Below the pieces are notes generated by a model. That model searched no databases and was not told where the DNA came from. It was given only the letters and a program-made list of their open reading frames with translations. Positions 8,438 through 62,300 of a DNA stretch of 64,000 nt are shown piece by piece; position 1 is the first letter of the stretch; each line of letters starts with the position of its first letter. The stretch is taken from contig RPFO01000774.1 of the NCBI GenBank assembly GCA_009746045.1, forward strand, positions 501,970-565,969, read 5' to 3'. Position numbers and translations under genes: made by a program. Origin of the DNA: Mesostigma viride (taxonomy: Eukaryota; Streptophyta; Mesostigmatophyceae; Mesostigmatales; Mesostigmataceae).

Positions 8438-11400
8438 TCACTTCATCACAACGTCACTCCGCAGAATGTACTTGGTCCCTTGGGTCACCTCCAGGGCCTC
8501 GTGCAGCATGCAGCGGTCCCCATGGATGTGGAACAGTGCCAGGCCTGTCAGCGGGGCAACCTGCGGATGCCAGCATAAACTCACACAATGCCACCGTTCA
8601 ATGCGCGCACATGGCAGCGGGCGCAGAGCACAGGTAACCTAAGCAAAGGCTCTCCTTTATGCCAAAAATAAGGCAGATGCAACCCTATACGCAGCATAGC
8701 AGGACAAACTACGCACATGGGCCACGAAATGGGACCCCACCTAAAGCAAGGCCACGGTGTATCTTTGCATGCCATAGCTGTGTAATATACTTTCATGATG
8801 GTTGCAGGTAGGAGTACATCCTTACCCTCCCGGCGTCGACCATGTGAAACGCACACGTCACAATGCTTGACGCAGCGGTATGCTGATTGGGGATAAGCGC
8901 TGTGGAGCCATAGTCCCTTGGCGATGATGTCGTGAAGGGCGAGGAAGGATGCCATGGAAGGAGGATCCCCTCAGATAACCTTGGTCACTGGATAGCATGC
9001 CAGACATGATTATCAAGCAAGGCAAGACGTAGACCATCGCCACGGGGGTCAACGCCATCCATGTGCCGACATACTGGTGGGCTGTTAGGTGGACCGTTAG
9101 GTGGGCTAACTTACTGATAGCACCTTCCTCCCTCGGCCATCATAGACTGTCTGTTAGGTGGACAGTTAGGTGGGCGAACTTACTGATAGCACCTTCCTCC
9201 CTCGGCCATCATAGAAGACCGTCTCCCCTCCCACCAGGGGCGCCCGACAGCTGGCCTCGTCTCGTGCCAGGTCCACTTTCTTGGCCTTGTCGCCCTTTTT
9301 GCCCTGGCCAGGTGGCGGGGCGGCATTGGCCTGGCCCTTGCCACCCGCCGACCCCTCCCCATTGAGGTATATCAGCAGTGTGTACGTGGTGTGTGCGCGC
9401 ATGCCATCGCTGGTCATTACATCGACACTCTCGTCAATGTGGCGGCCGAAACGTTGCCCGGGCTGGTAGCGGTAGATCCGAACTGACCATGGGAAGACGG
9501 GGGGGAGGGACAAGGCAAGTCACGGCAGAAACTACCCCTTGAAGAACTCATGATGGGTGGGTTTGCCCCCGAAGACCATGGACAGGAAACGACATCATTG
9601 AAGCGCCCGTCTCACATCACACTTCCAAACTTTAAACGTACCAACATACAGCGGAGATCATGAGATGGAGCGAGGAGTCCTTAAGCCTGAGCAGAATACG
9701 CCGTTAAGGCTGGCCTCAGCCCCCACATCATCCCAGCTCAGATGCGCCCCCCCCCCCCTCATCCCCACCCCACCCCACCCAACCCCATACATGGAACCAC
9801 CTCCCCCCCCAAAACCACCCAAAGAGTGCCACCACTGCATCTCCAACTGTCTTGCCCCAAGTGCCCCGCCAACCCCGTCCATACTTCCCATCCTGACCCA
9901 ATGTACCCTGCAGTGTGCCATGTCACCATACCTCCATGAGCATCTATCGCCAGCCTCCTCCTCGTGAGGCATACTCCAACTCACGGCTAGTTTGGAACAG
10001 AACATGCTGCGCGTATTCTAGAACTGCTATCGTTATTGTGTCCTTGTAGGCACGCACCCCCTGAATGGAGATATGGACCGAATCAAAGCAGCGGATGCCA
10101 CTCACTGTTGGGGTTCAGCCCGACGGCGGTTTCCCCCAAGCGTGCCTGCCAGGGTGCAATAAGAGGGCCAAAGGGAACCCACAGCAGAGCGCAAGAGGCG
10201 GGAAGCCGTCAGGTGCAACACATGCAGGTAATCGGGATTTCACCCCACCATGCCTCAGGCCGAGTGTTGGCAAGGGCAAGCAAAGAGAGAAGGGATTTTA
10301 GTTATCATGATTGGCATATGAAAGATGGACAAAGGTAGAGGACTTATGCCATCAACAGCTGCCGTGCATGGGTGCACCATATTTTCCTGTACAACTTTGT
10401 CCCCAGAAAAAAGGATTGCGGCCGTGTGTCGATTACCCACCACACAAAGCAGCATGACTCGAGACAACAGCACACCCGCAGTTGGATCATGCTATTGCAT
10501 GACCGCGACAGCATGGCAGCGACAGCCTGGAAGATGATGTGGGTGTCCACAGGGCATGCTCCTGACCATCCCACCTGGATCTCGCCCCACACCGGCAGGT
10601 GGCACATGCCCGTGTCCTCCCAGAGTGCGGATGCCAGCGCATCGTTTTGCTCTGAGATGCGATGGTTGTCACGGTAGGCCTGCGGCAAGGGCACGGTGGA
10701 TGGTGGGCACAGGGCAGGAGGGGCAGGGGGCAGAGGGGCAGGGTGCAGAGGGGCAGGGGGCAGAAGGGCAGGGGGCAGAGAGGCAGGGGGCGGGAGGAGG
10801 GGCGGCGAAATAGGGGGTGGGGCAGGCACAAGAGCGGCAGAGTCAGGTGAGCTCGCTGCATTTGCTAGCATGACGGTGGTGGGCATGGCAGTACCAATAT
10901 TGGATGGGCCGCACATGCCCTGGTGTCCACAAGCAGGCACCCAAAAGCGATTGCCCGGCCCCATAATGAAGATGTTTTGCATTTGTGCGCACTGCCATGT
11001 CTTGCATGCACCTGCGGCATGTTCAACCATGACAAAGAAGACTTGCACTTCATCACCCTGTGCAGGAGCGAATAACCTGAACTGCCGCCAACCCGGGTAC
11101 ATCGTGTCCAAGTCTAACAACAACTAAAAACTCAATGCTTCCGGGAGAATGCTGGTTGTCTCATGGACATGCACCAGCAAAGACACCCTCACCCTGTACG
11201 TCCCTTGTTCACGCCCCCCCCCCCCAAACGGCATCCTTGTTATGCATATCAGCTCCATGCATGCAACCCAGCAGCTGTGCATTGCTGTCTGACGCGAGCC
11301 AAGACCAGTGACAAATATAGGTTGCAGCAATACAGAAGCACAGTTGTACAGTTGGCCATGGCATGGCACGTGGCTTTGTTTTTTTTTTTGCGGGGGTAAG

Positions 11401-12365
11401 CAAAAGGTTGCTACCAGCACGGCACCATGCGGTGCTTACCGTACCTCCTGACACAAGCCACGTGGGCTGTGCAGGCATGCAGACCAGACTGGGTGGGTAC
11501 ATATTTTTTTCATCCCAGCCGTGACGGTGCCAGCAGTAAATGCCCATCCCATCTGCAAACCCCATTTCCATGTCAAGAAATCGACTCTGATAGCCATGGA
11601 CAACTTGGACCTGTATCAATACGTGTGAACGCCTAACGTGTGGTAACCAGAGACTGCCTGTCGTCACCACGGTTCACCCCACCAACTCATATGGACGTCC
11701 CGCCCTCATCATGAACCAGCCCACCTCTCCTTTGGCAGCCCCTCCGCTGCCCTGCCACGCAAACCCTTTGCTCTCCGCCGCGCGGATGAACTCTGACGCC
11801 TCGGTCGCATTCAGCAGGTGGCGGACCTGGTGGTGGTTGGGGTGAGGGGGGATAGCGTGAGCAGCGGCGGCATCCAGCAGGTGGTAAGTATGACAGAGGG
11901 CTTGCCAGTAGACACACAGATAAGGTACACATCAAAGCAGCGATCAGGGACAGGCATCGCCAAAGTTGCCACGAGTGCCTGGGTGCCGACGAAGTGTGTT
12001 GTCCAACTATCATAGCACAAGGGCAGCCTCCCACACGGAGGTGGGAACGGATCCTGGAAGGGCGAAAGCTGGAAGCAGAAACATGGCTGCGTGCGACTAC
12101 GGCTACGAGGTTACCAGCTTTGTGGCTAACACTAGCACAGGGGCGGGGTTCCAAACCATAATGAGGGAATGGGTCGGAGGAGGGTGAAGGTGGGTTGCGT
12201 GGGAGGGGGGGACGCGCACCGCAATGCAGTATCGCTCGTGCACTCCAGACGTTTTTTTATTGAGCCAAGTCAAGATTGGGTGTGCTTACTGTGAACGCGT
12301 TCAGCCCGAGGCCGCATGTTTCGTGGACAAGTCCTTTCTTTCGCGATACACGAGGCCAATCATGT
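8438..12365 (-). CDS. 2-oxoglutarate/Fe(II)-dependent oxygenase (prolyl-4-hydroxylase-like superfamily), 5' end incomplete
   Basis: Minus-strand spliced gene. Exons: 12290-12365 (tentative), 11725-11826, 10575-10679, 10106-10145, 9184-9482 and 8438-8560. All are bounded by AG/GT and join in phase, giving 222 residues from VRHLLNATEASEF to the stop (TGA at 8438-8440), plus about 25 tentative residues upstream. The facial triad is visible: HxD in RFGRHIDES and the distal His in CMLHEAL. The 2OG-binding Arg lies in KYILRSDV. AYRDNHRIS, AVGLNPNIRIYRY and LVGGETVFYD match the family found in plants and algae. It is expected to hydroxylate or oxidise a substrate using O2 and 2-oxoglutarate; the substrate is unknown. 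A Gly/Lys-rich insertion interrupts the core after TLLIYLNGE. The gene is divergent from the PTB gene. The start codon exon was not found. Confidence 0.85.
8561..9083. other. Oxygenase intron, no other feature
   Basis: Last intron of the oxygenase gene on the minus strand. No conserved coding segment, repeat family or RNA gene was recognised in it apart from the duplication at its 5' end. Confidence 0.5.
9084..9223 (-). repeat. 69-bp tandem duplication spanning an exon end and its 5' splice site
   Basis: The 69-bp unit starting at 9084 is repeated at 9153 with few differences. The second copy contains the last ~40 bp of the oxygenase exon 9184-9482 and its GTAAGT donor (9178-9183). The first copy lies in the downstream intron and carries a second intact CAGTAAGT donor (9109-9114). 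Use of the distal donor would read into a stop codon. Confidence 0.85.
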
Positions 12366-12929
12366 CTGGAAGAACTCATTGTCACTGGTGTGGGAATAAA
12401 GCAGGGGGGTGCTCTTGCCAAGCAAAGGCCGTCACCCGGGACAGTGAACCCACGTTGGGGTACTGTAGCATCAACAGCGCCCAGCATCGCCTGTAATAAA
12501 GCTCCCAATCAAGTATCTACGGGACGATTGTGGTTGATTTGTATTTTTAGACGTGCGAGACATGATGCCATTCTTCTCCTCAAAAGTGACCGTAATGAGG
12601 CCATTGCATATACAGGCGGTACTCATAATTGGCAGGTCCAGGACTTCACTCAACTAAACGCCTCGGCTGTGACAATGACAGGAGCATGAACACACGCGAG
12701 AAATTGCTGGTATTGGCAGCATTTGCGGCGAAATGGGATCTGCCACTGGCCACATGCTAATTTGTTGTAATGTTGGCGGGTACAACATCGGTAATTATTT
12801 TTGGCGAAATCATGGAGGAAATGATTTATCGGCACGGCATCAGGCATGGCAGTACTTATGAACGTCTGACGCCGGCGACGTCTGCTTAAAGTCTGCCACG
12901 GACCTCTCGGCTGGCTGTCAATCACGTCT

Positions 12930-13562
12930 CATATCCCACTGCTGTCAGTCCGTCAGCTTCGCACGACGGGTATACGTACATTATCGAGTACGGGGAATTG
13001 TTGATCAGTTTTTAGTGACGGTCGCAGTATATACGCCTTTACATTGTAAGAAATCCGCCCCTTAAAGTATATAGGATCGTAGATTGCCACTTACACGTTA
13101 CCGACTGCAGCAGGCATCTCGTCGCCCATCGGTCGTGGCTGCATCGTGAAAAGAAGAGCCCAGCCAGGCCCAGCATGAACCTACCATTACTTCAAACTTT
13201 TTAATTGAGAATTTGGGAAGGCTACAGAGGTCCTCGGGGGCCCGGATCTCTTTGTCTCTTTTTCCTTCTCTTCTTCTTCTTCTCCTTTTTCTTTCCCCCT
13301 TTCTGTGTCACTCGTTGGCCGGAAAACCCGCGTCCCTTGTTGGCCGGGAAACCCCTCTGATATCTTCTTGAGACCGGTTTTCTTGAAACGGAAGCAACGT
13401 GCGACCGGTCTTCCTCAGTCCCGAGTCATTTGCCTCTTCTACTCTTTTTCTGAGTCCGGAATCATTTGTCTCTCGTTTATCGTCCTTGTACTTTCTCCGC
13501 CTGCTTTTCTCTCAAATCCGGCATCCAAGAATCCTTCCTCTCCTGCCCTGTCATAGTTAACG
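12930..13562. promoter_or_regulatory. Presumed intergenic promoter region and PTB 5' leader
   Basis: Lies between the divergent oxygenase and PTB genes. 13240-13310 is strongly pyrimidine-rich on the PTB sense strand (runs of CTTCTTCTTCTTCTCC). An in-frame TAG at 13554-13556 sits three codons before the PTB ATG, supporting that start. No TATA-like element could be assigned with confidence. The missing oxygenase 5' exon(s) may also be in 12366-13400. Confidence 0.4.
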
Positions 13563-25342
<11,780 letters not shown>

Positions 25343-34737: not shown

Positions 34738-35958
34738 GATATACTTACCATCAAATATACGCTTGGCTGATTTCGATAGTACCGGCTACGCCCCCTTCTA
34801 CTAAAAGAAGGATTCAGCCGTGTTCAGCCCGTCTCACGGTGCGAGACTGAACAAGTCTCGCGTGCAGACACGTGTGTAGTACTCCTACACACAGATCTCG
34901 AGTGATTTATCTAGTACCAAATCCGAAAGGCTTGCATCACTCCCCGGACAGGAGAACTTTTGCGGATGACTGTAGGTGTAAGTTGGCGATGCCATGGTAA
35001 CCGGAGACGTCCGTCCTATAGTCAGCAAAATTGGTGCGAGAGGTCCCCAGTTCGATTCCGGTCGGATTCATTTGCAGATCGCGTTTTTCCGCGTTTTCCG
35101 CGGCCCGGTACTGAACGCAAATGGTTTTCACCTTTGCGGAGTGCCTGATCAAATATACGCTTGGCTGATTTCGATAGTACCGGCTACGCCCCCTTCTACT
35201 AAAAGAAGGATTCAGCCGTGTTCAGCCCGTCTCACGGTGCGAGACTGAACAAGTCTCGCGTGCAGACACGTGTGTAGTACTCCTACACACAGATCTCGAG
35301 TGATTTATCTAGTACCAAATCCGAAAGGCTTGCATCACTCCCCGGACAGGAGAACTTTTGCGGATGACTGTAGGTGTAAGTTGGCGATGCCATGGTAACC
35401 GGAGACGTCCGTCCTATAGTCAGCAAAATTGGTGCGAGAGGTCCCCAGTTCGATTCCGGTCGGATTCATTTGCAGATCGCGTTTTTCCGCGTTTTCCGCG
35501 GCCCGGTACTGAACGCAAATGGTTTTCACCTTTGCGGAGTGCCTGATCAAATATACGCTTGGCTGATTTCGATAGTACCGGCTACGCCCCCTTCTACTAA
35601 AAGAAGGATTCAGCCGTGTTCAGCCCGTCTCACGGTGCGAGACTGAACAAGTCTCGCGTGCAGACACGTGTGTAGTACTCCTACACACAGATCTCGAGTG
35701 ATTTATCTAGTACCAAATCCGAAAGGCTTGCATCACTCCCCGGACAGGAGAACTTTTGCGGATGACTGTAGGTGTAAGTTGGCGATGCCATGGTAACCGG
35801 AGACGTCCGTCCTATAGTCAGCAAAATTGGTGCGAGAGGTCCCCAGTTCGATTCCGGTCGGATTCATTTGCAGATCGCGTTTTTCCGCGTTTTCCGCGGC
35901 CCGGTACTGAACGCAAATGGTTTTCACCTTTGCGGAGTGCCTGATCAGATATACTTAC
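34738..35958 (+). repeat. Three identical 398-bp tandem monomers with tRNA-like module, flanked by an 11-bp direct repeat
   Basis: Units start at about 34749, 35147 and 35545 and appear identical over their length. The array is bounded by GATATACTTAC at 34738-34748 and 35948-35958, consistent with a target-site duplication around the whole trimer. Each unit contains a B-box-like AGTTCGATTCC (for example 35049-35059), a possible A-box-like TTGGCGATGCCATGG ~57 bp upstream, and TTTTT ~25 bp downstream, the order of an internal pol III promoter and terminator. A folded tRNA cannot be drawn: the T-stem has mismatches and the anticodon arm is missing. Each unit also holds overlapping short frames, judged non-coding. 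Confidence 0.8.
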
Positions 35959-45486: not shown

Positions 45487-45487
45487 G

Positions 45488-45547
<60 letters not shown>
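45487..45547 (+). repeat. (GTT)n trinucleotide repeat
   Basis: About 20 GTT units. Both sides carry related GGCGTGGGCTACTGTAC / CCGTGGGCTACAGTAC segments plus AAC-rich stretches, so the repeat sits between two copies of a short flank. Confidence 0.9.
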
Positions 45548-45548
<1 letters not shown>

Positions 45549-45584
45549 GTCCCACGCCGTGGGCTACAGTACAACCACAACAAC

Positions 45585-46443: not shown

Positions 46444-46564
46444 CGGTCATGCAACCAGTGATTTTGATCACAGTGCTGCAGCTATCGTGGATGCGGTATA
46501 TTTCCGTGACACGCATCGACTTAAGGGCTTCCTTGCGTTTCGGGGCCATCGGATCAGACAGCAT
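46444..46564 (-). CDS. Tentative first exon of an unknown gene, divergent from the Sec14-like gene
   Basis: Minus strand. An ATG at 46562-46564 opens a 40-codon frame containing MAPKRKEALKSMRVTEIYRI, which reads like real protein and ends at a CCG|GTAAAA donor. A following exon may begin after the CATGCAG acceptor near 46288 (GIELVQSPDQCGMCAHEDY in phase), but it soon meets a stop. I do not recognise the family. Its ATG is only 78 bp from the ATG of the plus-strand gene, so one of the two 5' ends may be wrong. Confidence 0.3.
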
Positions 46565-46641
46565 TTGTTAGTACACTGTTGGGCGTGGCGCTGCAGTTCA
46601 GGGGCTGGATAGCTACAAGATTTATCAGCATTTGCAGAGAA

Positions 46642-49600
46642 ATGGATTCCACAAATGAGGTGGGTGTTCATATTGGCAGTCATGTCAGCGTTCGTCGGCA
46701 GTCAGCCTCGGCTAATTCGAAGTGGACACCGGAGCAATGCGCAGTGTTCGAAGAGCTGCGCGTACACGGGTTATCAGACTCCCAGGTTCGTGCTTGTTTA
46801 ACGCACTGATCGATGTATGTGCTTACCTGTGATAGTCGTTATGCCGTTTGCAGGTAGGAATTGCCGCGACAGGGATGGCTATATTTGTATCTCCAATGAG
46901 CATAGGAGCTTTAGTCATCACTAACCCTGTGTTAGTTGATGGCTATGGCACATTAAAAAGCCGGGCGTCGCCCCAAACCCTTCCTTCCCCACCCCCCTTC
47001 TCCACCTTCCGCCCCCCTGGCAACCAATCCCCTCTATCCTCCCAAATAGCTCCCAATTAGAACCTCGGCCTGCACTCCCAGCTGCCTCCGCGCCTTGACT
47101 TGACTAGATAGTGGTCGGTCTAATACGTAGCCTATACTCCCCAGCGCATCATGCATTTGCTGCATCATACACTTGCTGCATCATGACTAGCCATCGCCAC
47201 GTGCGTGGGTAGGTGCGGCAGTATCAACCACGCATTGATGCATGTCTCATCTCCAGCGTTTGGATTGGGGGGGGGGGAGGGCGGAGTGTAGACGCAGGTC
47301 TGCGCAGTCAGTGACGATGGGGAATGCTGAGCAAGCCTCTTTGTAGCGTGCTCGTCACAAAAGTGCACATGCTCATGTATATTGCCTTTATGAACAGCTG
47401 GAATTGGTGCCAGGAAGCCCTTTCATGCGGTCGATGCACCGGAGCCGTGTGCATCTGTGTTCGGCCTAGACGTGACGACACATGCAGCGCGCAACTTGAC
47501 CCCTGTGTGCATTGCTTTGTTTGCACATGCCTGCTTGCCTATGCCTGCTTGCCCATGCCTGCATGGCCCCACCTGCTGGCCCACGCATGCTTGCCCACGC
47601 ATGTTTGCCCACGCATGTTTGCCCACGCATGCTTGCCCATATGCCTGCCGGCCATCCATGCCTGCAATTTGTGTGCATCCTTGCATACATACATGCTTGC
47701 CACGGTGCCCCTTGTTCTCCCTGCTCCCTGTACCATAAGTCCCTTCATCTGCTGTACATGCTATACACTGCTTGTCTGATGGCGCTGTACCAAGCATGCA
47801 GCTACTGCGCTTCTCCTCTCACACCGGGTGCCTCCCGCTCAATCATGGTCATTTGCAGCCCATTGAAACTTGGATTCATAATCCCTGGTCCCTTAACCCT
47901 AGCTCCTGTACTCTAAACTCCGAAACCGTACTTCCCTACTTCCCTAGACCTTACCATAACCCCTAGAGCAGGAGTCCATCCCTTGGTGCGGCATGTGTGG
48001 AATACGTCCCCTCCCCCTCCCTCGGTCGCACAGATGGCCTACCTGGATGGCCCTTGCCTGGAGCGCAGCCTCCGCGCCCGCCAGAACGATGCCCCTAAAG
48101 CGGTGGTCATGCTCCGCAACACACTGACGTGGCGCAGCCAGTTTGGAGTCCGTACGTCGACATGCAGCGGCGGCTTTCTGTCACGTGTCTTGAATCATAC
48201 AGCGCGGCTATCTTTTGAATCCACAATACGTACAGCTATGTGAGCACTACATAGACATCGCCACGGAGCTGGGCGAACACATTTTGTTGCCAAATATCTT
48301 GCATAATGATGTATACTAGTTGAGTACTAGATGCTAGAGTTTTAGTTGTGACAACTTTAACGGGTTCAGGCCAGCGCTGCTTTAATTGCGTGCATATGGA
48401 TACCTGTAATGCGGTGCCCCTTCTCGTCTCTGGCTCTTGCCCATGGGGCTGGGGAGCTGGTAGAACGGCCAGCACAGGGGCAGGTTTTAGCGACACGGGT
48501 TGACTTGCAATCGCGTTGGCTTGGTATAATGGCGCGTGAGTCAACACGGCAAAGCATGTGCTGGTTGTCTCGTAATGGCATACGGCGTGTACCCTTTTCT
48601 GTACTGCGTATGCAGCCCATTGCATGGGATGCTGTTGCAGCTGCATGGTATTTGCCCCTCCCTTGCCAGCCTTTGCTCGCCCGCCCCTTCCTTGCCAGCC
48701 CTTTGCTCGCCCGCCCCTTCCTTGCCAGCCCTTTGCTCGCCCGCCCCTCCCTTGCCAGCCCTTTGCGCGTCCACCCCTCCCTTGCCAGGCCTGTGCTTGT
48801 CTGCCTTGGCACGCTTGTCTTGACCAACGACACGCTCCCTGGCGGTGGCGCAAGAGAAGGCGCCTCTTCCACCTGGCCCAGGATAACCTCAGATGCACGG
48901 TGGCTGGTGTTCTGCTCTCTTGTCGGTTTGCCCTTGCTAATGCTGGCATACGCGCTGTGGCCTCTGGGCCCTGGCCCCGACCCACACACGCCTGGCCTCC
49001 CCCCCCCCCCTCGCAGCGCCCGACCCCTGTCTCCTTGCCTGCTTGCCGCATCCGTTAGCACCCGTGCCTAGCTCATCTGCAGAAACCCCTGCGTGCGCAC
49101 AGCTTGTGTCACATTTCGAACCAGCCTCTGGTTTCCATCGACCCCCTCACGGTGCATTGCCGTAGCCTGTCCGTGCTGCCTATCTGTGCACTCCGGCCGC
49201 CAGAGCACCTGCGCATGAAGGAATTTCCCGAAGAGATGAAGTCCGGCGTGTTCTACGTGGCGGGCTTCGACGCGGGCCAGCGGCCCATCATGGTGCGTGT
49301 GGCAGCAGTAGTGTATGCCAGCGGCCCGCCATGGTGCGTGCGACAGCAGGCTAGCCAAGGACAGGGAGGAAACCAATTACCGGGAGAGTTCCACCAAACC
49401 GCGTAACCCATGATGCCCCCCCTGGTCGGTTAGCACGGTTTGAGTCCTGGTAGCACCCTGTCTATGGTGTGCTGGGTCCATGGAGGAGCACCTGTAGTCT
49501 ACATGATGATGGCGTTTTTGGCAGTGTTCTAATTGTTTGATAGCCGTAAACTAGCTAGGCGAGTGTGGCAACGCACGTCACCCGGCCTTGCCTTGCAAGA

Positions 49601-50239
49601 ATACCGTGCAAACATCACCCACCACTTGTTCGTTCTCGCGAGATGGTTTGAATGAGCGCCCCACCGTGGCTGGTCCCGCACTAGCCAGGTGCATGGTTTT
49701 GCTGACAAGAAGCGAGCAGCCTGTCTGGGACTTGTCATCTCTCTCGTTTTTATACATATATATATAAATGATTCACTAAAACCATTTAGGAATAGTAATA
49801 GCATGTAGAAATCAAAACAAGATAGTTGTTTATCTGACTGTGATAAACCATAGCTTAGGGAAGATGTGTCGATCTGATTGTGACTGATAAATATCTGATT
49901 GTGGCTGATAAATATCATTTACATTATCATAAAAATAGACATTGCAATAATGTAATATCTTTATCTTACATTGGATGATATTCGGAATCTTATCGTTATA
50001 AATCTTATCCATTATAAACTCCCTCCATCTCTCTCTCTCTCACTCACTCACTCGCTCGCTCACTCACTCACTCACTCACTCACTCACTCACTCACTCACT
50101 CACTCACTCACTCACTCACTCACTCACTCACTCACTCACTCACTCACTCACTCACTCACTCACTCACTCACTCACTCACTCACTCACTCACTCACTCACT
50201 CACTCACTCACTCACTCACTCACTCACTCACTCACTCAC

Positions 50240-50331
<92 letters not shown>

Positions 50332-50333
50332 AG

Positions 50334-50364
<31 letters not shown>

Positions 50365-53069
50365 CCCATCACCCCCTTCCCTACACACACATCCCCACAT
50401 CCCCGCATCCTGACACCACGGCCGCGCACAGGTGTGCCGCAAGAACGCGGAGCGCTATTTTAAGGACGACGCCGACAAGTACCTGCGCTTTCTCGTGCTC
50501 ACGCTGGAGGCCGCCATCGCCATGATGCCCCAAGGGGTGGAACAGATGGTGTGGGTGCTGGACGCCAGAGGTGAGCTGTCCTTCAGTCACTGATGCCCCA
50601 GAGGGTGGAGCAGATGGTGTGGGTTCTCCGTCTCTTCTATTGGAGTGCCAGATGTAAGTGTGTTTCTGGCGGATGCAACGGACATCCTTGGTCTTGACAG
50701 ACGCCAGAAGTCACCGTCACTGAAGCACGGCGTACAGCGCATCCTCATATGATACGCACGCATGCGCAGGCAGGCAACTTGTGCCCTTGTTGCCACCTCT
50801 GCATATAGCTTGCCTCGACCATCGTGTGCAAAAAATGCGCAGAAATGGTCCTGTGATAACGCTCCCCTCATGTGTGGGGCTGGGCGCAGGATTGCGTGCA
50901 GCCGAAGAGGCCCCTGGAAAGGGAAGCGAAATGAGACCGGCTTCCCCACGCATGCACTGCAGTAGCTTCTATTCTCCCCATGGAAAGTCCATGAGTAGCT
51001 TCTGTGCACGCAGCCACCCGTTGTGTGTCGAACCGTCAGCACATGACACCCGCAACGTGCAGGCTCCCTTTTCCATAACCTCATAGGTCCCGAGGTCCTG
51101 CCATTCGGCTTCTATTCTTGGATTAGCTTATACCAGTGAGCCACGTCGCGCCATTTCTGCGCTCTTGAGGACCATGCTGAGGCATCTGTTACGTGCACCA
51201 TGTTGTTCCATTCCTTAGGAAAAGGGCCCTCAGGAAATATGACCCTCAGGAAATAGGACACACGTGCATGGATGTCATGTGGCCGCACACGTGCTCAACC
51301 CCCCCCCCACCCACACACACACACACACACCGGCTCAACCTCCACCTCCCCACCCCCCCAAAGCACCCACAGGCCTGCGCAGCTCCGACTCCCCCCCCAT
51401 CAAGGTCACCCAGAAGCTGCTCAACATCTGCGCGGACCACTATCCGGAGCGGCTGCGCGCGGTGTATGTGGTGGATGCGCCCAAGGTCTTCTGGTACCTT
51501 TGGAAGGTGCGCGCAGGGGTCCCCTGAATGTTTTCAACCCATGGGAGGTGTATGTGGAAGCTGTGTGCAGAATGCCGTATGTAGAGACCCGTGGAAAGGA
51601 CCGGTGGATGGTGTGCGCAGGATGCCTTATGCGGGACCCTATAAGAGACTCTATTGAAGGTGGGCGCGAGAGGGGGGGCATAGCCTGTTGGGCCATGACC
51701 TTTAACATCCTGTCTTTATGGTCCACATATCCCGTTATGTGGATAACTGTATCCGTTATTCTGGCTCGGCCAGCATTGACACCATGTGTGGCTGGTAGTG
51801 CCTACAGTTTGACCATTCCACCTGCTAGTCCATCAACCCTGCCATTTAGGAGGGAGTACACCCAGCTAATCCTCGGAGGCCCATGTCCCGAAACCTTAGA
51901 GACACCCTTTGAGCTTGTGTACGCATCACCTGGACTAGGGCCAGCTCACAGCGCAGCTCCCCGCTCAAGTGATGGGCAGGCAGAAAAGGGGTTTTACTGA
52001 GCACGCCGAACAGGGTCGTCACTGTGTTCTGAGGGATTGTGTGGCCGTTTGGGTCGGCACCCAGCACAGCTACTCCCCGTCACCTCGGGTAGCGGTAGTT
52101 TTGGCGGCGAATACCTGGCAGCCATCGCGAATCCCCCGCAAACCCTAGCCACCCTAGTAACCTCCGTGGCCACCCCAGGCCATCGCCACCTTCAGTCATG
52201 CCGTGTGCATGCAGGGATTGACAGCACGTTCAGTGCTGGATATATCCCCCTAGTGAGATAGGCTGGATATATCCCCCTAGTGAGATAGGCTGGATATATC
52301 CCCCTAGTGAGATAGACTGGATATATCCCCCTAGTGAGATAGGCTGGATATATCCCCCCTAGGGGACCACGTGTTTTGATTGATGGATGCTTGCCGTGCA
52401 GACTAGCGTGACACATCATCAAAGCGCACACACTATGGGTGGTTTGTCCCCCGCCGGCCGCGTCAATATGGTAGCCAAGGGCCTGTGTGAGGGACATCCA
52501 TTATCATGCTGTCACGTGCTACTTGATCACGGGTTTAGGGTTCAGGACTCAGGGCTTCGATGACCCAGGCCTAGAGCTGACCTAGGGCATCATCGTGTCC
52601 CTGTTTTCCTTCCCATACCCGTGTCCGTGCCCGTTCATGCCCATCCCTGCTGGCACGCCCTTTCTGCGGCCATGTGCCCCCCCACCCGCCCAACCGTTCC
52701 CTGATGGCCTGTTGCCCACTCTCCCCCCCCTCCCCCAAGTCCTGTCCTCCTTACTTCAATAAATTGCCTGCGATGATACCCGATATTGGCCTGTACCCCC
52801 CTCAGACCATCAACCCCTTCCTGGACAGGAGCACAAAGTCCAAGATCCACTTTGTGTGGGCCAAGGACTTTGATGCTGGCGACGCGCACCGCGACGAGCC
52901 CATCTCGCTGGAAGAGGCGGCCGCGGCCAGTGAGTACGCGGACAAAGCGCTGGAGGACGCGGCCGCGCTGGAGAAGGAGTTTGCCTCGTACAAGCTCGCG
53001 TTCGAGGCGGCGTATGAGGAGGACAAGTACCGCTCGCTGCTGGGGAAGTGTGCGCCCGCGTGGTGCTGA
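46642..53069 (+). CDS. CRAL-TRIO / Sec14-like lipid-binding protein
   Basis: Plus-strand exons: 46642-46785, 48034-48151, 49204-49292, 50432-50570, 51373-51506 and 52806-53069. Phases agree and give 295 residues plus TGA. The N-terminal CRAL-TRIO_N helices include WTPEQCAVFEELR and LERSLRARQNDAPKAVVMLR. The lipid-binding domain runs from SGVFYVAGFDAGQRPIM through MPQGVEQMVWVLDARG and LNICADHYPERLRAVYVVDA to VFWYLWKTINPFLDRSTKSK. The C-terminus (about 230-295) is acidic and Ala-rich and looks helical. The family moves or presents phosphoinositides and other lipids between membranes; the ligand here is unknown. Exon 1 uses a weaker GTTCGT donor and is the least certain. Introns carry many tandem repeats, and two of the exon ends are duplicated downstream. 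Confidence 0.88.
47530..47690 (+). repeat. ~14-bp CCCACGCATGCTTG repeat in Sec14-like intron 1
   Basis: Degenerate units of GCCCACGCATGTTT and TGCCTGCTTGCC follow one another. Both strands read open over it by chance. Confidence 0.75.
48650..48790 (+). repeat. ~36-bp tandem repeat in Sec14-like intron 2
   Basis: Four to five copies of a unit with CTTGCCAGCCCTTTGCTCGC. It is pyrimidine-rich on the sense strand. Confidence 0.85.
49277..49349 (+). repeat. Duplicated exon 3 end plus 5' splice site, Sec14-like gene
   Basis: A 32-bp segment from CCAGCGGCCCATCATGGTGC (49277-49308), covering the last 16 bp of the exon and the donor, recurs at 49318-49349 with about four differences and an intact GTGCGT donor. 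The spacing is 41 bp. Confidence 0.8.
50029..50380 (+). repeat. (CT)n, (CACT)n and (CA)n compound microsatellite in Sec14-like intron 3
   Basis: Order: short CT, ~200 bp of ACTC tetramer, ~60 bp CT, ~60 bp CA with GACA interruptions. It ends ~50 bp before exon 4 and provides the pyrimidine-rich 3' splice site region. Confidence 0.95.
50523..50660 (+). repeat. Duplicated exon 4 end, Sec14-like gene
   Basis: TGATGCCCCAAGGGGTGGAA (starting 50523, in exon 4) recurs with about four changes at 50591-50627 in the intron, including CAGATGGTGTGGGT. 20-30 bp further a GCCAGATGTAAGT donor-like site lies at 50646-50658. The spacing is 68 bp. Confidence 0.75.
52238..52356 (+). repeat. 27-bp tandem repeat containing GGATATATCC
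   Basis: Four full copies and one partial of a 27-bp unit with GGATATATCCCCCTAGTGAG, in the last intron of the Sec14-like gene. Each unit holds the perfect 10-bp palindrome GGATATATCC. 27 is a multiple of three, so it reads as a 9-residue repeat on the minus strand. Confidence 0.9.
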
Positions 53070-54300
53070 GCCATTTTGGGTGCAAGGGCGTGGGGTCGAA
53101 TGATGGTGCTGAGCCATGATGTGGGATACATTGCCTTTACCGGAGGCAAGGTGCATGTGGAGGCACAATGCGGATGCATGATTTGAGCAAGGGTGCTGGG
53201 GCATCATTTGCACTGGCATCCTTTTTTCAGAGGCATGGGCTTGAGGCATGGTGCCGTGCTATGGGTAGGGGGGAGGCTGGGGGCCAGGTGCTCAGGCATC
53301 GGTGTTGCCACATCAGTGTTGATGAGGCGGGCTGGGGAGGCAGGGTGGGTGTGGAGTGACGGTGCGAGGTGTCATGGGCGCGGAGGCATAACGTTGAGGG
53401 GCATGGCATGCAAATGCCAGTAGAGAACCCCTGGCACGGAGTTGCGTCTACGAAACAAGACGCCTCGTGTGCAACCATTACACGACAATGCCAGGGGACA
53501 GCGTGCCCGCGTGTGGTTCTGTTCTCTCTCACGAGCTGGGTCGATGGCGTCATCGACACAAGGTGCGGCTCCACGGAACTGGTGGACTGGGGGATATATG
53601 GTGGCGGCTGGCAGTATTGGTGCCAGGGACAAGTGCTTTTTTTGTCGAGCACATTATTTAATTAATTAAGAACATACCTCCGTGGGGAGGATATGTAACA
53701 CATATCCCTGAGAAGCGGCATATGGGTTTTAATACATTGTAGGCGATAACCTGCAGGTGGTGGACCTGTAAACTGCCACCTACTCGGGGTGCACAGCTGA
53801 GGTGTGCAACCTGCACCACCATGTATTCCAGCATCTATGCTTAAAGTTGCGCACATGGGGTGGAAGATGATCATGGCTCAGCATGGCTAGGGCATGATGG
53901 CGTCTCAGCAGAGAGTGGCTCTCTGCATGGGCAAAGCATGGCTGTCTCATAGCGGATGCAGTAAGGCTGCTCCATGGCCGGTCCAGAGCCCACAATCGAT
54001 ATGCTTGGAACACATTGAGAGGCGCCTGTTTGGGAGATTATAAAGGCCTCTCCCGGAGCCTGACATGATGTGTCATGCATGGTGAATTATAATGCTGTGC
54101 CTGCTATGCAAAATATGCATCCATGTTGCATGTGCATAATATACACACAAACATGTACACATGCACGTGCACACGCACGCATATTACAGAGCTGAATGAG
54201 CCACTGAGGTGGACTGAGCACACGGTTTTAGGGTGTTAATTAATTAATAGACACGTGACTTGCACGTCACGTTCACGAGCATAAGTCCTCAGTGGGAGGG
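53070..54300. other. 3' flank of the Sec14-like gene with repeat ends
   Basis: 53650-53770 carries a TTAATTAATTAA tail, a CCTCCGTGGGGAGG hairpin end and a segment related to the foldback at 27585-27835. 54236-54275 carries a TTAATTAATTAAT tail and a degenerate family G hairpin. No gene was recognised. Confidence 0.45.
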
Positions 54301-55130
54301 GAACATGGGATGGAATGGATGGTGTTAGCTATCTAGGTCCTAGTTACAGGGGTGTGGGCACCGCGGCCCGAATCGCTATGAATGCCTTATACGCGGTCAC
54401 ACGCGGATCGACCCCCCGCAGACTAGTTGGGGGTGCACATCACCTAAAAATGGCCTTTTTTGTTACATGGGGTCATATCTCCCACACATATAGTCAGATC
54501 GGGGTGCCTTTCTGGACTTAAGGTCCCCCTAGGACCCTGTTCACATCACATAAATTGGGGGGCCAACTGAACTATTTTTAGCATCAAACCGTGACGTGGA
54601 AAAGTGCAAAAAACGATGTTTTCCAGGCATAAGGAGGCATAGCAGCCACACACAAGTAGTAAATGTAGTCCAATTCAGTTGGAAATGGTCATGCTTATTA
54701 ATTTACATCCAAAGACAAAAACCGCCCTTAAGTATGCAATGTAGGACCAAACTATGTGCTATAATTCTGGCATACATGAGCCAAAACACCGTTTTAGTGC
54801 ATTATTTTCAAACTTATGAAGCCCCTGCCAGCACATATGTGGCCCAATCATGCCAGAATTCGTCACAATAGTAGCACAATACTTGAATTTACACTAGAAC
54901 ACAAGTTGGACATACTAGGACCACTGCCGGCCCACTGAAAGTGACGGATGCAAGCAGAAATAGAGCGATTTTTGCCAAAATACTCCATATTCTGCGCCAT
55001 TGTCTTGGAAAACTTTGCATTCTTCACTCAATTATCGTCATGGCTGTCATGGGATTCATATACATGCCACTGGGGCTGGATACATTAACCAACACAGACT
55101 AAAAAAGCGATCATCAAGGGACAAAATCTC
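54301..55130. other. AT-richer unassigned region
   Basis: Base composition is clearly lower in GC than the flanks and no frame exceeds ~90 codons. It may be an old mobile element; nothing specific was recognised. Confidence 0.35.
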
Positions 55131-55332
55131 CATCAATCACAGTAGATGCTGGCATTCGGAACAAGCACCGTAGTGCCTACAAGCCTTAAGAAGGGGAGCT
55201 TGGCTGACCAGTCGTGCCTGTCGGCTGACCAGTCTCTTTTCTAAACGGGCCCCGCTCGACAGCACACACAATCTCCTTTGCAGTACTTGGCCCACTCTGC
55301 TGGGCACCCCTGCTGTGCGTGTGTTATAGCAG

Positions 55333-56630
55333 CTAATCCACATATATATCTGCCAGGTGCCTCTCTGCTACATGGAAATACAAAGCGCAATCAAGGACAG
55401 CAGTGGCTTGGGCTGCTATTCGATTGAGCTCAGCACCTAGCTGCTGTGCAACATGATTCTGCATCAGTGCCTGTCCTAATTGCGCCCCCCCGCCCCGGCC
55501 CTTGCCATCATCGTCATGCTCATCATAGTCTTTGGAACGTGCACTGAACTCCAACCCTTGGACAGTCCATAGGTCATTTTAAGAATCTGTGCATGTAATG
55601 CTAGCTCTTCTCAGTTGAACTCATCTACCACCCTCTCATGGTCGTGTCATCTCTCATGTAATCCACCTAGGTTTATCGTGGCCACTGATCTTTCACCCCT
55701 CCTGACATCAAAATCTGGGCAAACACACTGTTGACATCGCCCTTCCTTTTTAGCCTGCATGGCTCCTCATGTTTATCCTTATCTCATCCCTCAATACACC
55801 TAGAACTGTCTATTCATCCCCCTTGCATAGGCGGTGCATAATTGCGGCGTGATGGGGGATTGCCAAAAATAGGTGTAAAATGCATGGGATGGCACGGGGA
55901 GGCTCACACTCATCGCTTTACAATCACATGCACTCATGTGCTAACAATGTCCCTCCCTGCTTTTGACACTGCATGCACATGCATTTCCTACCGGCTATAT
56001 CAAGCCTTTAGTGTGGTTTGGTGCATCAAGAGACATGGCAGGTCAGCTGAGTGCATCAGACCACATTTGTGTTAAGTGTACGCTTGCAACGCTGTTTGCC
56101 CACCGCATGGAGCTCCCCTTTCGGACAGTGGCACAAGTAGCAAGTGCTTACACCTTACTCCCAGCCGCTCACCCTGCCCATGCTAGCAACAAGAACAAAT
56201 GCATGGTCCCCATCCCAACGTAAGGTGCATCACATTGATGGCCCTGCCATCACCTAGCAGTGTGCCACCCCTCTCCACCTCAACCTACTCTGAAAGGCCT
56301 GGGCCCCAACAAACCTTTCAAGACATGGCACTCCTCAAAGAAGGCAACCCCTCAAAGAAGGCGAGGCAGTTTAGGTCTAGGGGGGCTTTGGGTAAGTTAA
56401 AAGATGATAGAGTTCACTAACACAGGCCATGGCAACGACAACCTGCTTCACCCGCTGCATCCATACACCACAAGCCATAAACTGCACAGCCTGGCATGAT
56501 TGCCTAAGGGTCACGTGATCCAAGATGCCCTTCAGGCTCACCCCAGCACACCGGCCCATCCTCACCACCCCACTGGTCATAGTCATCTACAGTGGCATCA
56601 AACTCCTCTAGGACAGAGTGCAGTAAAGGC
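55333..56630 (-). other. Minus-strand coding-like patches of unknown origin
   Basis: Two patches look protein-coding. 56543-56628 gives MLPLLHSVLEEFDATVDDYD and ends at a GG|GTGAGC donor. 55333-55554 gives LNRIAAQATAVLDCALYFH followed by a stop at 55333-55335. They could be exons of one minus-strand gene or a decayed transposon ORF. I could not link them in phase and recognise no family. Confidence 0.25.
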
Positions 56631-56639
56631 AACATAGAC

Positions 56640-57960
56640 GTCCTGACACAATTGAATAAGAACGTGGCTGCTACCTACTGCCCTTAAAAAAAAATGTCGA
56701 TTGCTTGCACACATACGCATTCAATTCTTCAAGCAAGCATGCTAACACCTTCACAGCACATCCCAAGGTTGACATCCATCGAGCTTTGTCAACAAGCATG
56801 ACTTCCTGATGCAAACTTAGCTGTCAAGCTAGGAGAAGGAAAGCTAGGTAAAGAGGTGAGATAGACCCCCCCGCAGCACCTTCCTGCACCAAAACCATGA
56901 CAATATCATCCAGAGCTTGCTAAATACGTACAGCTAACCGGTAGCGGGCGACCTTGCAGTCCAGGTTCAGCGCAAACATCTCGTGTCAGCACCCGCCGGA
57001 GATGGCGGACGCGAACCCACAATGCTTTTAAAGCGAGTCATAAGACTATTTCGGGGAGCGGTGAACGGCTTGGAACACCGAAGGTATGCCGCGACAAAAG
57101 CCTGAAGTTTTTCTCGGAAATACACGCCTGGATGTGGATAAGGGCACCGTTGTCGTGCTTGTGCTTGCGTTGCGAGCAGGCAACCAGTGTTTCTTGCAGT
57201 GTCGAGCAGTAACAGATGGTGGCGCGAGAGCAATATGTGACTTTTAAATCATGGCTACACAGCTTACACCTCCGCAGGCATGTTGGAACAAGCCCCGCCA
57301 TGCCGTGAGCCGAAAAAAAGGAAGAAACGCATCAAGCAAGGACGGTCGTAAACGTCACTGAAAACAGCAAAATCTGACCTGCCGGCAGGTAATGCGACAG
57401 CCTGGAAAATGTGATTCGTTTCTCGAAAAACTGATCAGCGCTCGTGAAAGTAGACTTGAAGCCCATTCGGATTCGACCTTTTGGGAACTGTGAGCTTCCA
57501 ACAAAAAAGTTTCCCCCACAATTAATAAACATGCATTTTCGCTGCCAATTCCAGATCTGGCTGACACAAAAAAATAGCGTCTCAGTTTGCGAATTATTTT
57601 GACGCATGAACATACGCGAATAATATCTACCATGCATCATCGCAAAGCAGGAGAGTTTACGCGTCGTTTGCATCCATCGCAGCGACTTAACATGCATAAT
57701 TGACTTATGACTGATATTCCGGCGGACATAGGGTCGACAGCCATGCGAGGTGGAATTTTTCTGGTCCCGTCGTCCTCAACGCGACGCGTTCGCGCCAAAA
57801 TTCCCAGGATCTCATGTAACCGGACGGACCGATTTTAGGTGATGTGGGTCTCCTTCATCACTACTTGCCATCTATCCTTGCATGCGCATGCGTACCATCT
57901 GCCTCCATATTACAGACAAACCAGGAGGCTGCCCGGGTGTGAGCCCGTCACGTCTAGTGT
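56640..57960. other. Unassigned region
   Basis: Minus-strand frames at 57038-57301 (starting MAGLVPTCLRRCKLC, with a CxxC) and 57332-57697 have no recognised family and no supported splice sites. No RNA gene was seen. Confidence 0.3.
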
Positions 57961-57969
57961 AGCACATGG

Positions 57970-58762
57970 CCATGCCGAGTCTATCACGAAAAGTCCGCGG
58001 GTGGCGGCCCTGCCGCGTGCGGCCTGGGGCACGCCAGGTGAGCTAGGACATATCGCCCAGGCTGGGCGGGCTTGGTGCCAGCTAGTCTATCTGATCGTGT
58101 GTCTACCTGATCTGTGCGGGCCAGCTCGGATGAGGATTACATCCCCATCTAGTGCTTAGTGGTTGGGGAATGATGCAGATGATATTTGTTTAAACTTTTG
58201 TGTAATTATTTTTTTCTTATGAGGTTGGCATAGTACTCCGTGGCATGCCTTTGCGCATGACACGCAAGTACTTACTAATTACTTACTTACTTACTGTGCG
58301 AGCCAGGTGCCCGGCTAGGCCCAGGCGCCTGTGCCTAATAATGTGGGAAACATAGGGCAAATCAGCGTACAAATCCTCATTACTAATGTGCAAACCAAAG
58401 GGGATGTTAAGGGCCTTGCGCAGCATCTTGGTGACGGTGCCGTCGAGTCGTTGCTCCAGCTCCTGCATCAGTGTCCAGGTCTCGGTGCCGTAGGTCAGGA
58501 TCGTCAGAATGACGACCTTGAAGAGGTCACGCTTGACGATCCAGGGTAGGGCGGGCATGCTCCACCAGCGGCGGTGGTCGGCATGGAGTTGAGCCCACAC
58601 CATGCCGATCCGTTTCGTCATGTCGTCCTCGCAGTCGAGAAGCCAACTGCCGAGCAGCTTTGAGCGGCCGGCCTGAAGTAGGGTAGTTGACCTTGGTACG
58701 TGTTGTCTAAGAGGGCGTCCCCAACATCTACTGCTCCAATTTTGGTACTTTTGAAATTCCAT
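57970..58762 (-). pseudogene. LINE remnant (family F-like), C-terminal RT region
   Basis: Minus strand. KLLGSWLLDCEDDMTKRIGM, IVKRDLFKVVILTILTYGTE, LDGTVTKMLRKALNIPFGLH and RRLGLAGHLART follow in order in one open frame of 159 codons (58283-58762). The continuation beyond HLART is separated by a family D insertion at 58125-58293. Confidence 0.7.
58125..58293 (+). mobile_element. LINE family D 3' end insertion with target duplication
   Basis: Plus strand. The acidic last codons, 3' UTR, hairpin and (CTTA)n tail of family D. The flanks CTGTGCGGGCCAG (58112-58124) and CTGTGCGAGCCAG (58294-58306) are a 13-bp direct repeat with one mismatch, taken from the interrupted LINE. Confidence 0.75.
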
Positions 58763-58839
58763 GCCTGGAGCGCAAAGTTTGCAATATATGTGCCGTTTGT
58801 AGCTCTAGCTCTATAATAACCTGACCAACCCCGCATTCC

Positions 58840-59368
58840 TCAAAGTACTTAGCACTTGTTGCCTATTCTCATTATGCGAATCACATGATTAGGATGTGCT
58901 TCATGATTGCTATTGCTCGAGATTCAATTAAGAATGATTGACATCAATAAATGATGAACCAAATAAACCAAATTAGGCCACTTGACAAGTTCATGATCCA
59001 TTTAAATTGTACAATTAAGCGATTAATTAATTCATAAATCATACATTACATGGGATACCCCCGTCGACGAGCTAGTGGTACGTACAATGAAACATTTGAG
59101 TTTGTAACATGTCTCCATGGATATATACATGTATGCTGGACCTCGCGCATCTCAGCCCTCTAAGAAATGTTATTTGAACTCAGGTCTAGATCTAAATATA
59201 TACATGATCTGGATAATATTATACACTTCCTTAAAAGAGCATGAATCGAGCTTTACAATTCAGGACAAGGAACTCGTTTGCAAATCACGGCTGAAAGGCA
59301 AGTGCTCACAACGAAGCACGTGCTCTCAAGGCTGTCCACCTCGTCCAACCAAGCCCGGGCGAGCTGGC
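58840..59368. other. AT-rich spacer
   Basis: Low-GC sequence with no frame of interest between the LINE remnant and the 3' end of the transposon-type gene. Confidence 0.4.
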
Positions 59369-62300
59369 CTACTCAACAGGTCTCTTCTTGGCCAAGTTCG
59401 TGAGCCGTTTCTCGACGTCTGTCGGAATGGTCAAGATGGCCTGGCGATTGTTAGCTGGGTTGACAACAATGGTGTGTTCGAACCCCGCGTCCATGCACAG
59501 GTAGCAATTGACCAAGTTTGGCTGTTCAGCTTGCGCATCGGCGTCCATTTTGAACATCGTCGCCATACCCGGAAATCTGTCCCAGTAGCGCACCCCCACC
59601 ACCCATTGTCCCTTACGGAACAACTCCCTATCGACCTTGCCGTTTCTGTCGGCCACTCGCCTCACGAAAGTAGCGGCCACCTGATAAGGCTCCTGCAAGA
59701 CTTCCGCTAGCCAATATGGATGATCTGGATCGTGGGACTCATCACCAGAGTAGGACTCGACGGCAAAAATGTCTCGCAGCTTCAGTCTCCTTCCCATCAT
59801 CGTCCTCTCTGCCTGTAGTCTGTTCAGTCGCGTCCCTGCGTGCCCCCCTTGTCCGTTTGGGTTCCTTTGCACTGGCTCCCCCAGTTTGTGGAGCTTCATC
59901 CGAGCACCTCCCACATTCCAGCCGTCCATGTCGGTCCACTCCTTTCGACAATCCCACCACCTTTCCTCGGCGCACGCACCGCCACAATAGCAGGAATACT
60001 GGCGCAGCATTAAGCGCGTCACATTCGACTTGTCCATGCGCCACCAGTGCGCCTTCTTCACTCCTTTGATTTCGCCGCGCCCTGGGCTGTAAGGAAGCAC
60101 CTGCGCGTCGAAGACAAGATTTGCACAAGGGAAAGTTGAAGTTACGAGACCATCGAGCTAGTTGTGTTTTATTAAGCACTCCTGATCGCCAGGACTCCAA
60201 GAACGCCCTAGAAACGACGGCCGGCGTAACTATTCCCTGAACGAGGACTGTACACTTAATTACCTCGGGGAACTCGAAGAAGTTACGCCTGGTCGTTGTG
60301 GTCCCGCCCACCGCCCCCGACGCCAGATTCTCCACCAACTGGGCGGCCGTCTGTTTGTCCTGGTTCTCTTCCCTGATGTGCCACCTCCTCAACATGCACT
60401 TCACAGTCCCACCAGCTCCATCCACCTCCCCCTTTCCGTGCTGCTCCCCAAAGTAATTCCACTCAAATGACTCCAGGTGCGGATCCTCCGTCAGCAGCCG
60501 GGCCACTTCCGCGATCACATTCCTTGACTTGAACTGCATGGAGCAATTGTCCGACCACCCAATGAAGCGCTTCACCTCTACCCCTTCTGACCGTAGTGTC
60601 GCCAGGATTTTGAGGATAGCAAAACGGAGGGCCCGCCCGTCCCTTTTCATTCCGCCCTGTCCGATGAAGTGAAACTCCCTTCTCACGACCTTTCCCGACG
60701 CTGGATCCAAGTAGCGCACGATCCAGGGCATAAGGACGAATGTGACTGGATGCCAATACTGTGCTTGGAGATTGTGATAGGTGTAAGACTGGTAGTTCTC
60801 GGCGTAATCTGTGTGGCATACAAGGTCCCCCACCCGCATCCTTGAGAGACATTCCTTGGAGGCGTCCGCTTGCCACCACGCGTTGAAGCAATGCTGGATG
60901 AAGTCCGGCCACTTGTCCACAATTGCCTCCTTTAGCTCCGTTGGTGTGGACTTGACGTCGACTTGCGTCAATCGCTGCCCACCAGCCTTTGCGATCTCGT
61001 CACAGTCGTCCTGCATATGCGCAGTGTGCACATACAGAAAAGACATCAACTTCGACCCACCAATGACCTGTAGAAAGAAAAAAGACAGGACCTCAGGAAA
61101 AATTGAAAAAGAAACGCCTTGGGGCGCAACCACTCCACTAAAAATTACCTCTGGCCCAAGAACTTCAGGAAACATTGCAAAAGAAACGCCTTGGGGCGCA
61201 ACCACTCCACTAAAAATTACCTCTGGCCCAAGAACCGCACCCGGCGGCACATCCTGCATCTCGTATCTGGTCCATGAAATCAGGTGGTTGGAAGCCTCCT
61301 CCCGTTCGCATAACATGAAGTTCCGAATTCCACACTTGGGAGCCAGGCAAGTGCCCAACACACAAGCCTTACGCCGGATCGAGCAAACCCCCAACTCCTC
61401 GCCCAGGTCATGATCGGGCACCCCTTCCTCGTCGTCCAGCACCCTCCCATGCATGGGCAGATCCTCAAGTTCGCCCTGAAAAGGCTGAACCTGCGGCCGC
61501 GACGACCCCACAGACGACCTCGAACCTCCCCCCTCCCTCATCCCCTCCACCTCACAAGTAAACTTGTTCACCCACTCTGTCGTGTGAGTGGCTTTGAAAA
61601 TGGAACATGTGGGCACGGACGACCCCACGTCGAGCTGGCTACCATGATCGCACGCGTGGCATTCAGGTCCGCACTCGCATCTGGCATGAAAAGTTGCACG
61701 AAATTTGGCCAACCCCCCAACCATGGACTGCATGGTAGTGTGGTGCTGGCATGCGCACAAGTTCCGCATTTTCCACCGCCCCTTGACGCATGCGGGCATA
61801 TGCTTGCAAAAAGTAGTGTATCCCACATGAACTGTGCTCTTCTGATTCGTGCGTAGCATTGACATCCCTGCCTCCGTCTCCAAAATCACCTGATTTCCCC
61901 CCCTCACACCCTCCTCTCCCTCCCCCCCCCCCCCTCCCTACTGTCCATCCGCCGCGGTGGCTTCAACTCCGGATGGCGGGAAATGAACACTTCGTAAATC
62001 TTCGACTTGGAGACAGTATAGTAGCGCGCACCCTCCGAAAACGCTAGTGTATGTTTGTAATCCTTTCTGGTCCATTCACAATGAACATCCTTCATGTTCG
62101 GAGACGCCCGCGTCAAGTTATCATCCCTCCAGCACGCTTGTATCAGGGCAATGACTTCCGTCGGAAGCTCGTCTTTCCTCCTCCTCTCTGGCGCACTCAT
62201 CAAAAGGTCGTCCTCCCCTTCTTCCATTCCATCCCTGTGACCCCGAACAGTTGCGACAAAGCGCCTGTCAATCCCGAACGCGCGCTCCACAATCCTGTCC

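Follow-up and report, generated by a model that had tools for sequence, protein, structure and literature searches.

The window analysed here is a stretch of 64,000 nucleotides of Mesostigma viride DNA (G000:C2178:501970-565969) from a genome of 440 Mb in 2,243 contigs. It carries an oxygenase gene, a PTB-type gene, a Sec14-like gene and a transposon-type gene, and our subject is the short repeats at exon ends of these genes, which a first-pass annotation had described as duplicated 3' ends of exons, mostly including the 5' splice site (donor), and had attributed to a local duplication process. Repeats in the window were located by self-alignment and with Tandem Repeats Finder, and gene models came from the strict version of a self-trained gene finder that was run on the window and on twelve 10-kb stretches; all splice sites that enter the counts below are predictions. 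In case of the oxygenase gene, the relevant features are the following (a slash marks the exon/intron boundary throughout):

9184..9482, minus strand: 2OG-Fe(II) oxygenase exon with the duplicated 3' end (...GRGRKVLS/GTAAGT), from the gene model (model end 9192, corrected to 9183) and Pfam
9151..9215, minus strand: 69-bp tandem unit 1, which contains the end of the exon together with donor 1 (GTAAGT, 9183-9178), from self-alignment and Tandem Repeats Finder
9082..9146, minus strand: unit 2, intronic, with the identical donor 2 (GTAAGT, 9114-9109), from self-alignment and Tandem Repeats Finder
8442..8560, minus strand: following oxygenase exon (VAPLTGLALFHIHGD...), from the gene model and Pfam

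The two units (9082-9146 and 9151-9215, lag 69) are identical at 63/65 positions in self-alignment and Tandem Repeats Finder output, and both read tca/GTAAGT. When the donor at 9183-9178 is joined to the exon at 8442-8560, the product matches 2OG-FeII_Oxy_3 (PF13640) with 33.9 bits, which is over the cut-off, while the open reading frame (ORF) alone reaches 23.0 bits; splicing at the second donor would lengthen the exon by 69 nt and bring in in-frame stops. The 69-bp duplication with its second intact GT donor had been annotated correctly, apart from the donor position, which we correct to 9183-9178, with the copy at 9114-9109. The PTB-type gene contains these features:

15378..15495, plus strand: PTB-type exon ending ...GLTSHA/GTGAGT, with the source 19-mer at 15485-15503, from the gene model and self-alignment
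15551..15572, plus strand: degenerate copy of exon end and donor, lag 71, from alignment (19/22)
15633..15651, plus strand: exact 19-bp copy of exon end and donor, lag 148, from self-alignment
17122..17210, plus strand: for contrast, a duplication within a PTB-type intron and off the junction (17122-17153 / 17179-17210, lag 57), from self-alignment

The 19-bp duplication at exon 4 of this gene (15485-15503 and 15633-15651, 19/19 identical) and the degenerate third copy (15551-15572, 19/22 identical) are present as annotated, with intact donors, and GTGAGT is common to all copies. The exon join at the first donor gives a sub-threshold RRM_8 match of 22.4 bits that lies within the second exon; the second donor would shift the frame, and the third would add in-frame stops. 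Directly past the donor copies, a 46-copy array of a 10-bp unit (GGGCCGATAG) occupies 15781-16240 of the intron. Two exons are concerned in the Sec14-like gene:

49209..49292, plus strand: Sec14-like exon 3 (...FDAGQRPIM/GTGCGT), exon start approximate, source segment 49276-49308, from the gene model and self-alignment
49317..49349, plus strand: copy of the exon 3 end and donor, lag 41, from self-alignment
50432..50570, plus strand: Sec14-like exon 4, of which the segment 50523-50559 is copied downstream, from the gene model and alignment
50591..50627, plus strand: copy of the 3' portion of exon 4 without the donor, a GTAAGT beginning at 50654, from self-alignment

At exon 3, the duplicated donor junction (49276-49308 and 49317-49349, lag 41) is identical at 29/33 positions and carries GTGCGT in both copies, of which the second would shift the frame; joining exon 3 to exon 4 at the first donor gives a CRAL_TRIO match of 32.5 bits, over the cut-off. 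At exon 4, the 3' end is copied at 50591 without its donor, just as had been claimed: 50523-50556 and 50591-50624 agree at 31/34 positions, and the match stops 11-14 nt short of the donor. In the oxygenase gene, the PTB-type gene and Sec14-like exon 3, every copy has kept the GT donor intact and shares its 6-nt motif with the source, and these three cases are solidly established as duplicated 5' splice junctions. The fourth case of the first-pass annotation, in the transposon-type gene, has a different character:

61165..61235, minus strand: 72-bp unit 1 with a donor-like GAG/GTAATT (G at 61220), from self-alignment and Tandem Repeats Finder
61093..61163, minus strand: 72-bp unit 2, one open frame spanning both units, from self-alignment, Tandem Repeats Finder and the ORF list
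59742..61937, minus strand: 731-aa ORF, open across both 72-bp units, from an ORF scan

The 72-bp tandem repeat is real (97% match between 61093-61163 and 61165-61235 by Tandem Repeats Finder), but it is an in-frame duplication of 24 codons, and the alleged intron has 153 nt, is divisible by three, free of stops and lies inside the 731-aa ORF, which makes a donor duplication doubtful here. A Pfam search of this ORF (59742-61937) reported no family. The doubled unit occurs in 30/30 fetched element copies (taken from the best 40 of 293 candidates), and an exact-pattern search found the single-unit version in two genomic copies, which makes this one event inside an element that multiplied. The element itself (59742-62854, minus strand) has at least 40 genomic copies identical over 601 bp among the best 40 of 293 candidates; many of the copies are on contigs of 29-45 kb, and 6/30 fetched loci are identical throughout.

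For the main counts, the window genes were left out, and 20 kinase-exon loci, the UPF1 gene and four stretches of CCT genes were used. The kinase and CCT exons had been picked without regard to repeats; UPF1, one of the twelve random stretches, was included after repeats had been seen there, and counts without it were also computed. Homology confirms the central exon at every kinase locus as well as the CCT exons matched by hidden Markov models, and the counts also take in their ab initio neighbours. Exon-anchored queries consisted of 60 exon and 2 intron bases, with 300 bp searched at a score of at least 14; junction-centred queries (62-mers of 31 + 31 bases) were searched over 300 bp downstream of donors and upstream of acceptors; intron-only queries comprised the first or last 62 intron bases, and interior queries were 62-mers from intron interiors of the same genes. 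Simple repeats were masked in the comparisons.

With exon-anchored queries, copies were found at 15/57 donors (kinase 10/33, UPF1 2/7, CCT 3/17), 9/63 acceptors (kinase 7/37, UPF1 1/7, CCT 1/19) and 16/232 intron interiors (kinase 5/88, UPF1 3/48, CCT 8/96), with an odds ratio of 4.8 for donors against interiors (p = 1.2e-4) and of 2.2 for acceptors against interiors (p = 0.07). The junction-centred and intron-only tests were designed after the other tests, and the p-values, from small samples, are uncorrected for the several designs: centred queries found copies at 22/56 donors (kinase 12/32, UPF1 2/7, CCT 8/17) and 11/57 acceptors (donor vs interior, odds ratio 8.7, p = 1.1e-8; acceptor vs interior, 3.2, p = 0.009), and intron-only queries at 10/49 intron starts and 2/53 intron ends (p = 0.013), of which the starts, although devoid of exon sequence, exceed the interiors (p = 0.006) and the ends do not. 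The interior matches include some copy-to-copy pairs and three windows of one repeat, and the comparison with interiors is therefore conservative. Without UPF1, the counts are 13/50 for exon-anchored donors (p = 5.4e-4), 20/49 for centred donors (p = 6.4e-8) and 13/184 for interiors. Rates at junctions and in intron interiors, which neutral local tandem duplication would make equal, thus differ, and the recurrence of duplications at 5' splice sites that had been proposed from the window extends to genes outside it. Equal rates at donors, acceptors and random intron positions, which would have contradicted the first-pass proposal, were therefore not observed, although donors and acceptors are separated by centred queries (odds ratio 2.7, p = 0.024) but not by exon-anchored ones (odds ratio 2.1, p = 0.11). 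Two further parts of the proposal find no support: the pattern is not local to the window, since such copies also occur in UPF1, the 20 kinase-exon loci and the CCT genes, and it is not confined to donors, as centred acceptors exceed interiors and the stop-codon end of one MAP-kinase-like gene is copied likewise.

A test on 62 predicted introns, at a score of at least 14, found copies of exon ends at 9/61 upstream and 6/61 downstream exon edges, and no inverted copies in the same 61+61 tests. At a score of at least 15, donors had copies in 9/29 cases at kinase loci, 4/41 in the random 10-kb stretches and 4/32 in the window, and acceptors in 5/30, 1/56 and 1/41, respectively, the random-stretch rates being diluted by false exons. 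The matched 62-mer comparisons supersede earlier statistics that gave a larger excess over simulation. Simulations of neutral duplication in which exons were conserved and no place was favoured, which used size, indel and turnover settings of our own choice and did not include real intron base composition and repeats, gave donor/interior ratios of 0.84-1.34 for exon-anchored (eight settings) and 1.03-1.29 for centred queries (two settings), as compared to the observed 3.8 and 5.7. As neutral duplication gives nearly equal rates, the observed counts require a bias towards the donor side, be it in how copies originate or in how they are retained.

The copies are in direct orientation and lie beside their source, with lags, once one false match (26 nt at L058) is removed, of 34-305 nt in 24/25 cases and of 1,115 nt in one, and 12-53 nt of exon are copied together with the site. 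Second donors would usually shift the frame or add a stop, and several introns contain more than one copy. When 15,357 bp of exon from the kinase and UPF1 loci were compared with the surrounding noncoding DNA, 26 matches were obtained, all at most 80 nt from a predicted exon end, with pieces of 3' ends downstream only and pieces of 5' ends upstream only; such a placement would follow from purging of duplications that fall within exons. The mismatches at codon positions 1, 2 and 3 (22/237, 23/240 and 39/235) show the copies to be free of coding constraint. Full tandem units that include the intron half exist in the oxygenase gene, in UPF1 (44 bp) and at the loci L063, L058, L052 and L047. A count according to which young duplications are not commoner at donors (4/57 with an alignable intron half) was discarded, because it misses L063 and L052, which have a short exon part, and L047, where the predicted exon end is misplaced. 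Intronic cassette exons were also considered and find no support: acceptor scores of at least 2 occur near 9/20 donor copies as compared to 0.21 at random positions, but scores of at least 4 near only 2/20 as compared to 0.12.

In the UPF1 gene (L037:1681-9590), three exons have copies of their donor and one acceptor is copied, and the exon joints at first donors can be aligned with solved UPF1 across 192 residues with no gap. A CCT gene occurs in two copies (98.3% identity across 1,374 aligned bases) that are set apart by a complex indel within an exon-edge copy and, elsewhere, by an 18-bp insertion adjoining near-identical sequence; such sequence is turning over. At L068 and L069 (on C1641 and C887), a CCT gene is present in two near-identical versions, which may be two haplotypes and could serve for measuring the turnover of duplications.

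What could generate this pattern? We see about an even chance that the copies are recurrent short direct tandem duplications, biased to donors, which place their copy in the intron and are tolerated, as the first donor is presumably kept in use. Such duplications, mostly of ~30-150 bp, would be frequent in genes and would favour the junction of exon and intron start. A duplication that spans a donor would spare the exon and the first donor, with the copy landing in the intron, so that the gene would work on with the first donor and the copy could drift as intron sequence. The exon hardly changes, and exon edges would therefore stay recognisable for longer; copies of coding DNA would survive only when they cross into noncoding DNA, the gene keeping its nearest splice site. 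Stated more generally, and with the same evenly divided confidence, duplication into the downstream intron may favour 5' junctions, or copies of these junctions may be kept in preference, so that some quarter to two fifths of 5' junctions have another copy close by, in many cases with a second donor, which would amount to a genome-wide supply of spare splice sites. We infer that the first donor is the one used, that the copy is neutral and that the bias is in origin, i.e. in mutation, rather than in retention, this last point because the GT of the copy is not specially retained and no frame preference is seen. Several observations weigh against this. The intron half is alignable in only 7/28 copies, as compared to 0.50-0.60 in neutral simulation, where it should be noted that detection power drops with divergence, and the exon extents at donors are short (median 23 nt vs 34-56 simulated); neither is predicted by plain tandem duplication. 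In the CCT genes alone, the excess is weak and not significant with exon-anchored queries (3/17 vs 8/96, p = 0.37), although it is significant with centred ones (8/17, p = 3.2e-4). The simulations call for a bias but leave its nature unspecified.

What alternatives exist? Tandem duplication might be even along genes, and the edges might stand out simply because the conserved exon side keeps old copies recognisable. Exons are indeed conserved, and the tandem geometry of the full units is as expected, but conservation, while it reveals old copies, does not account for the excess of intron starts, which contain no exon sequence, over both interiors and intron ends, and together with simulated ratios near 1 and a conservative interior comparison this renders the explanation unlikely and largely disfavoured. 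Alternatively, extra exon edges bearing a splice site could be retained because they are useful as back-up or decoy sites or in nonsense-mediated control, which would account for the donor excess, the short extents and the lost intron half, and copied donors that keep their GT are indeed nearly as strong as real donors (mean score 7.3 vs 8.5; 6/14 equal or stronger). However, with exon-only detection and one false L058 match removed, the G and the T of the copied donor agree with the source in 16/18 and 15/18 copies, like the neighbouring exon bases (17, 14 and 17 of 18), and 5/25 lags are multiples of three, which shows no frame preference, so that we regard selective retention as rather improbable.

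Template switching during repair or replication, at microhomologies resembling splice sites (AG/GTRAGT, CAG/G), would copy pieces of edges and not whole units. Across 19 donor copies, the last 10 exon bases have an identity of 0.91-0.92, which drops to 0.46 between +7 and +10 and to 0.29 past +20, and the rarely alignable intron half as well as one UPF1 copy that lies 1,082 nt from the start of an intron of 1,491 nt would fit such a process. But the identity of 0.45-0.46 at +7 to +15 is above that of unrelated donors (0.27-0.29) and near that of a neutral tandem simulation (0.46-0.61 at +7 to +16), and young full tandem units exist; the first impression of strictly "junction only" copies was weakened by a further comparison, and template switching appears a doubtful explanation as well. 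A mobile element whose insertion at splice junctions would leave long duplications of the target site, similar to introners, could explain why a spacer is flanked by copies that include the junction, but among 34 spacers (12-359 nt; longer ones omitted) 0/528 pairs scored at least 14 and no common family emerged, and this highly improbable mechanism was rejected. Chance, low complexity or an assembly artefact might be suspected in a genome rich in simple repeats. These were masked, however, the copies are diverged, none was inverted in the 61+61 tests, exon ends gave 0/409 matches at a score of at least 14 in unrelated introns, and the controls gave 0/280 (shuffled targets) and 2/615 (other genes) for centred donors and 1/245 and 0/543 for intron starts, which leaves such an origin with very little probability.

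The window contains further repeats, namely a 398-bp unit in three tandem copies that are nearly identical (99% match) at 34750-35954, off the exon edges of gene models, a ~1 kb CCCTCTCT microsatellite at 21205-22250, and many other long simple repeats. Elsewhere in the genome, EsV-1-7 repeats (150 scored matches among 500 candidates), which would hint at a brown alga, occur in long open frames such as G000:C2189:632713-633754, many of them ~117 bp apart, and 33 matches to light-harvesting proteins mark the genome as algal.

If the general reading given above is right, the spare splice sites could contribute to the growth of introns, to alternative splicing and to intron gain. Single cases underlie the discussion of tandem duplications at splice sites as a source of new introns, and here one lineage has many such copies, biased to donors, both in the window genes and in conserved ones (UPF1, kinases, CCT). 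Such a system allows measuring how well splice junctions tolerate duplicated sites, the rate at which copies decay, any use of the spare donors, and the cause of the preference for intron starts.

Short local tandem duplications in noncoding DNA are direct, with an adjacent copy that drifts, and the algal copies resemble them in orientation, adjacency and drift but exceed intron interiors and neutral simulation on the donor side. In the intron gain scheme of Rogers, an exonic segment containing AGGT is reportedly duplicated and a new intron arises between both copies; this arrangement was considered and not found, as the duplicated segments in the alga straddle a junction that is already there and their copies fall inside the present intron. 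No description of genome-wide exon-edge copies in introns was recognised among the titles and abstract beginnings listed by searches of one open-access library. Introner elements (PMC9860276) likewise change splice-site sequence on a genomic scale, but the algal spacers form no repeated family. Intron gain by tandem genomic duplication, as reported for the potato RdRp gene, where the copied segment has an intron-exon structure (PMC4974935, which cites Gao & Lynch 2009 and Hellsten 2011 in the same context), and for Drosophila cases (PMC2891723), also brings extra GT/AG sites into a gene, whereas in the alga the segment spans an existing junction, the copy lies in an existing intron and no new intron is implied. 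The tandem alternative splice sites GYRGYR and NAGNAG, which are named in PMC2891723, similarly place two competing sites close together, the algal second donors being putative; the difference is that in the alga 12-53 nt of exon are copied along with the site, and that the two sites are spaced by 34-305 nt in 24/25 lags.

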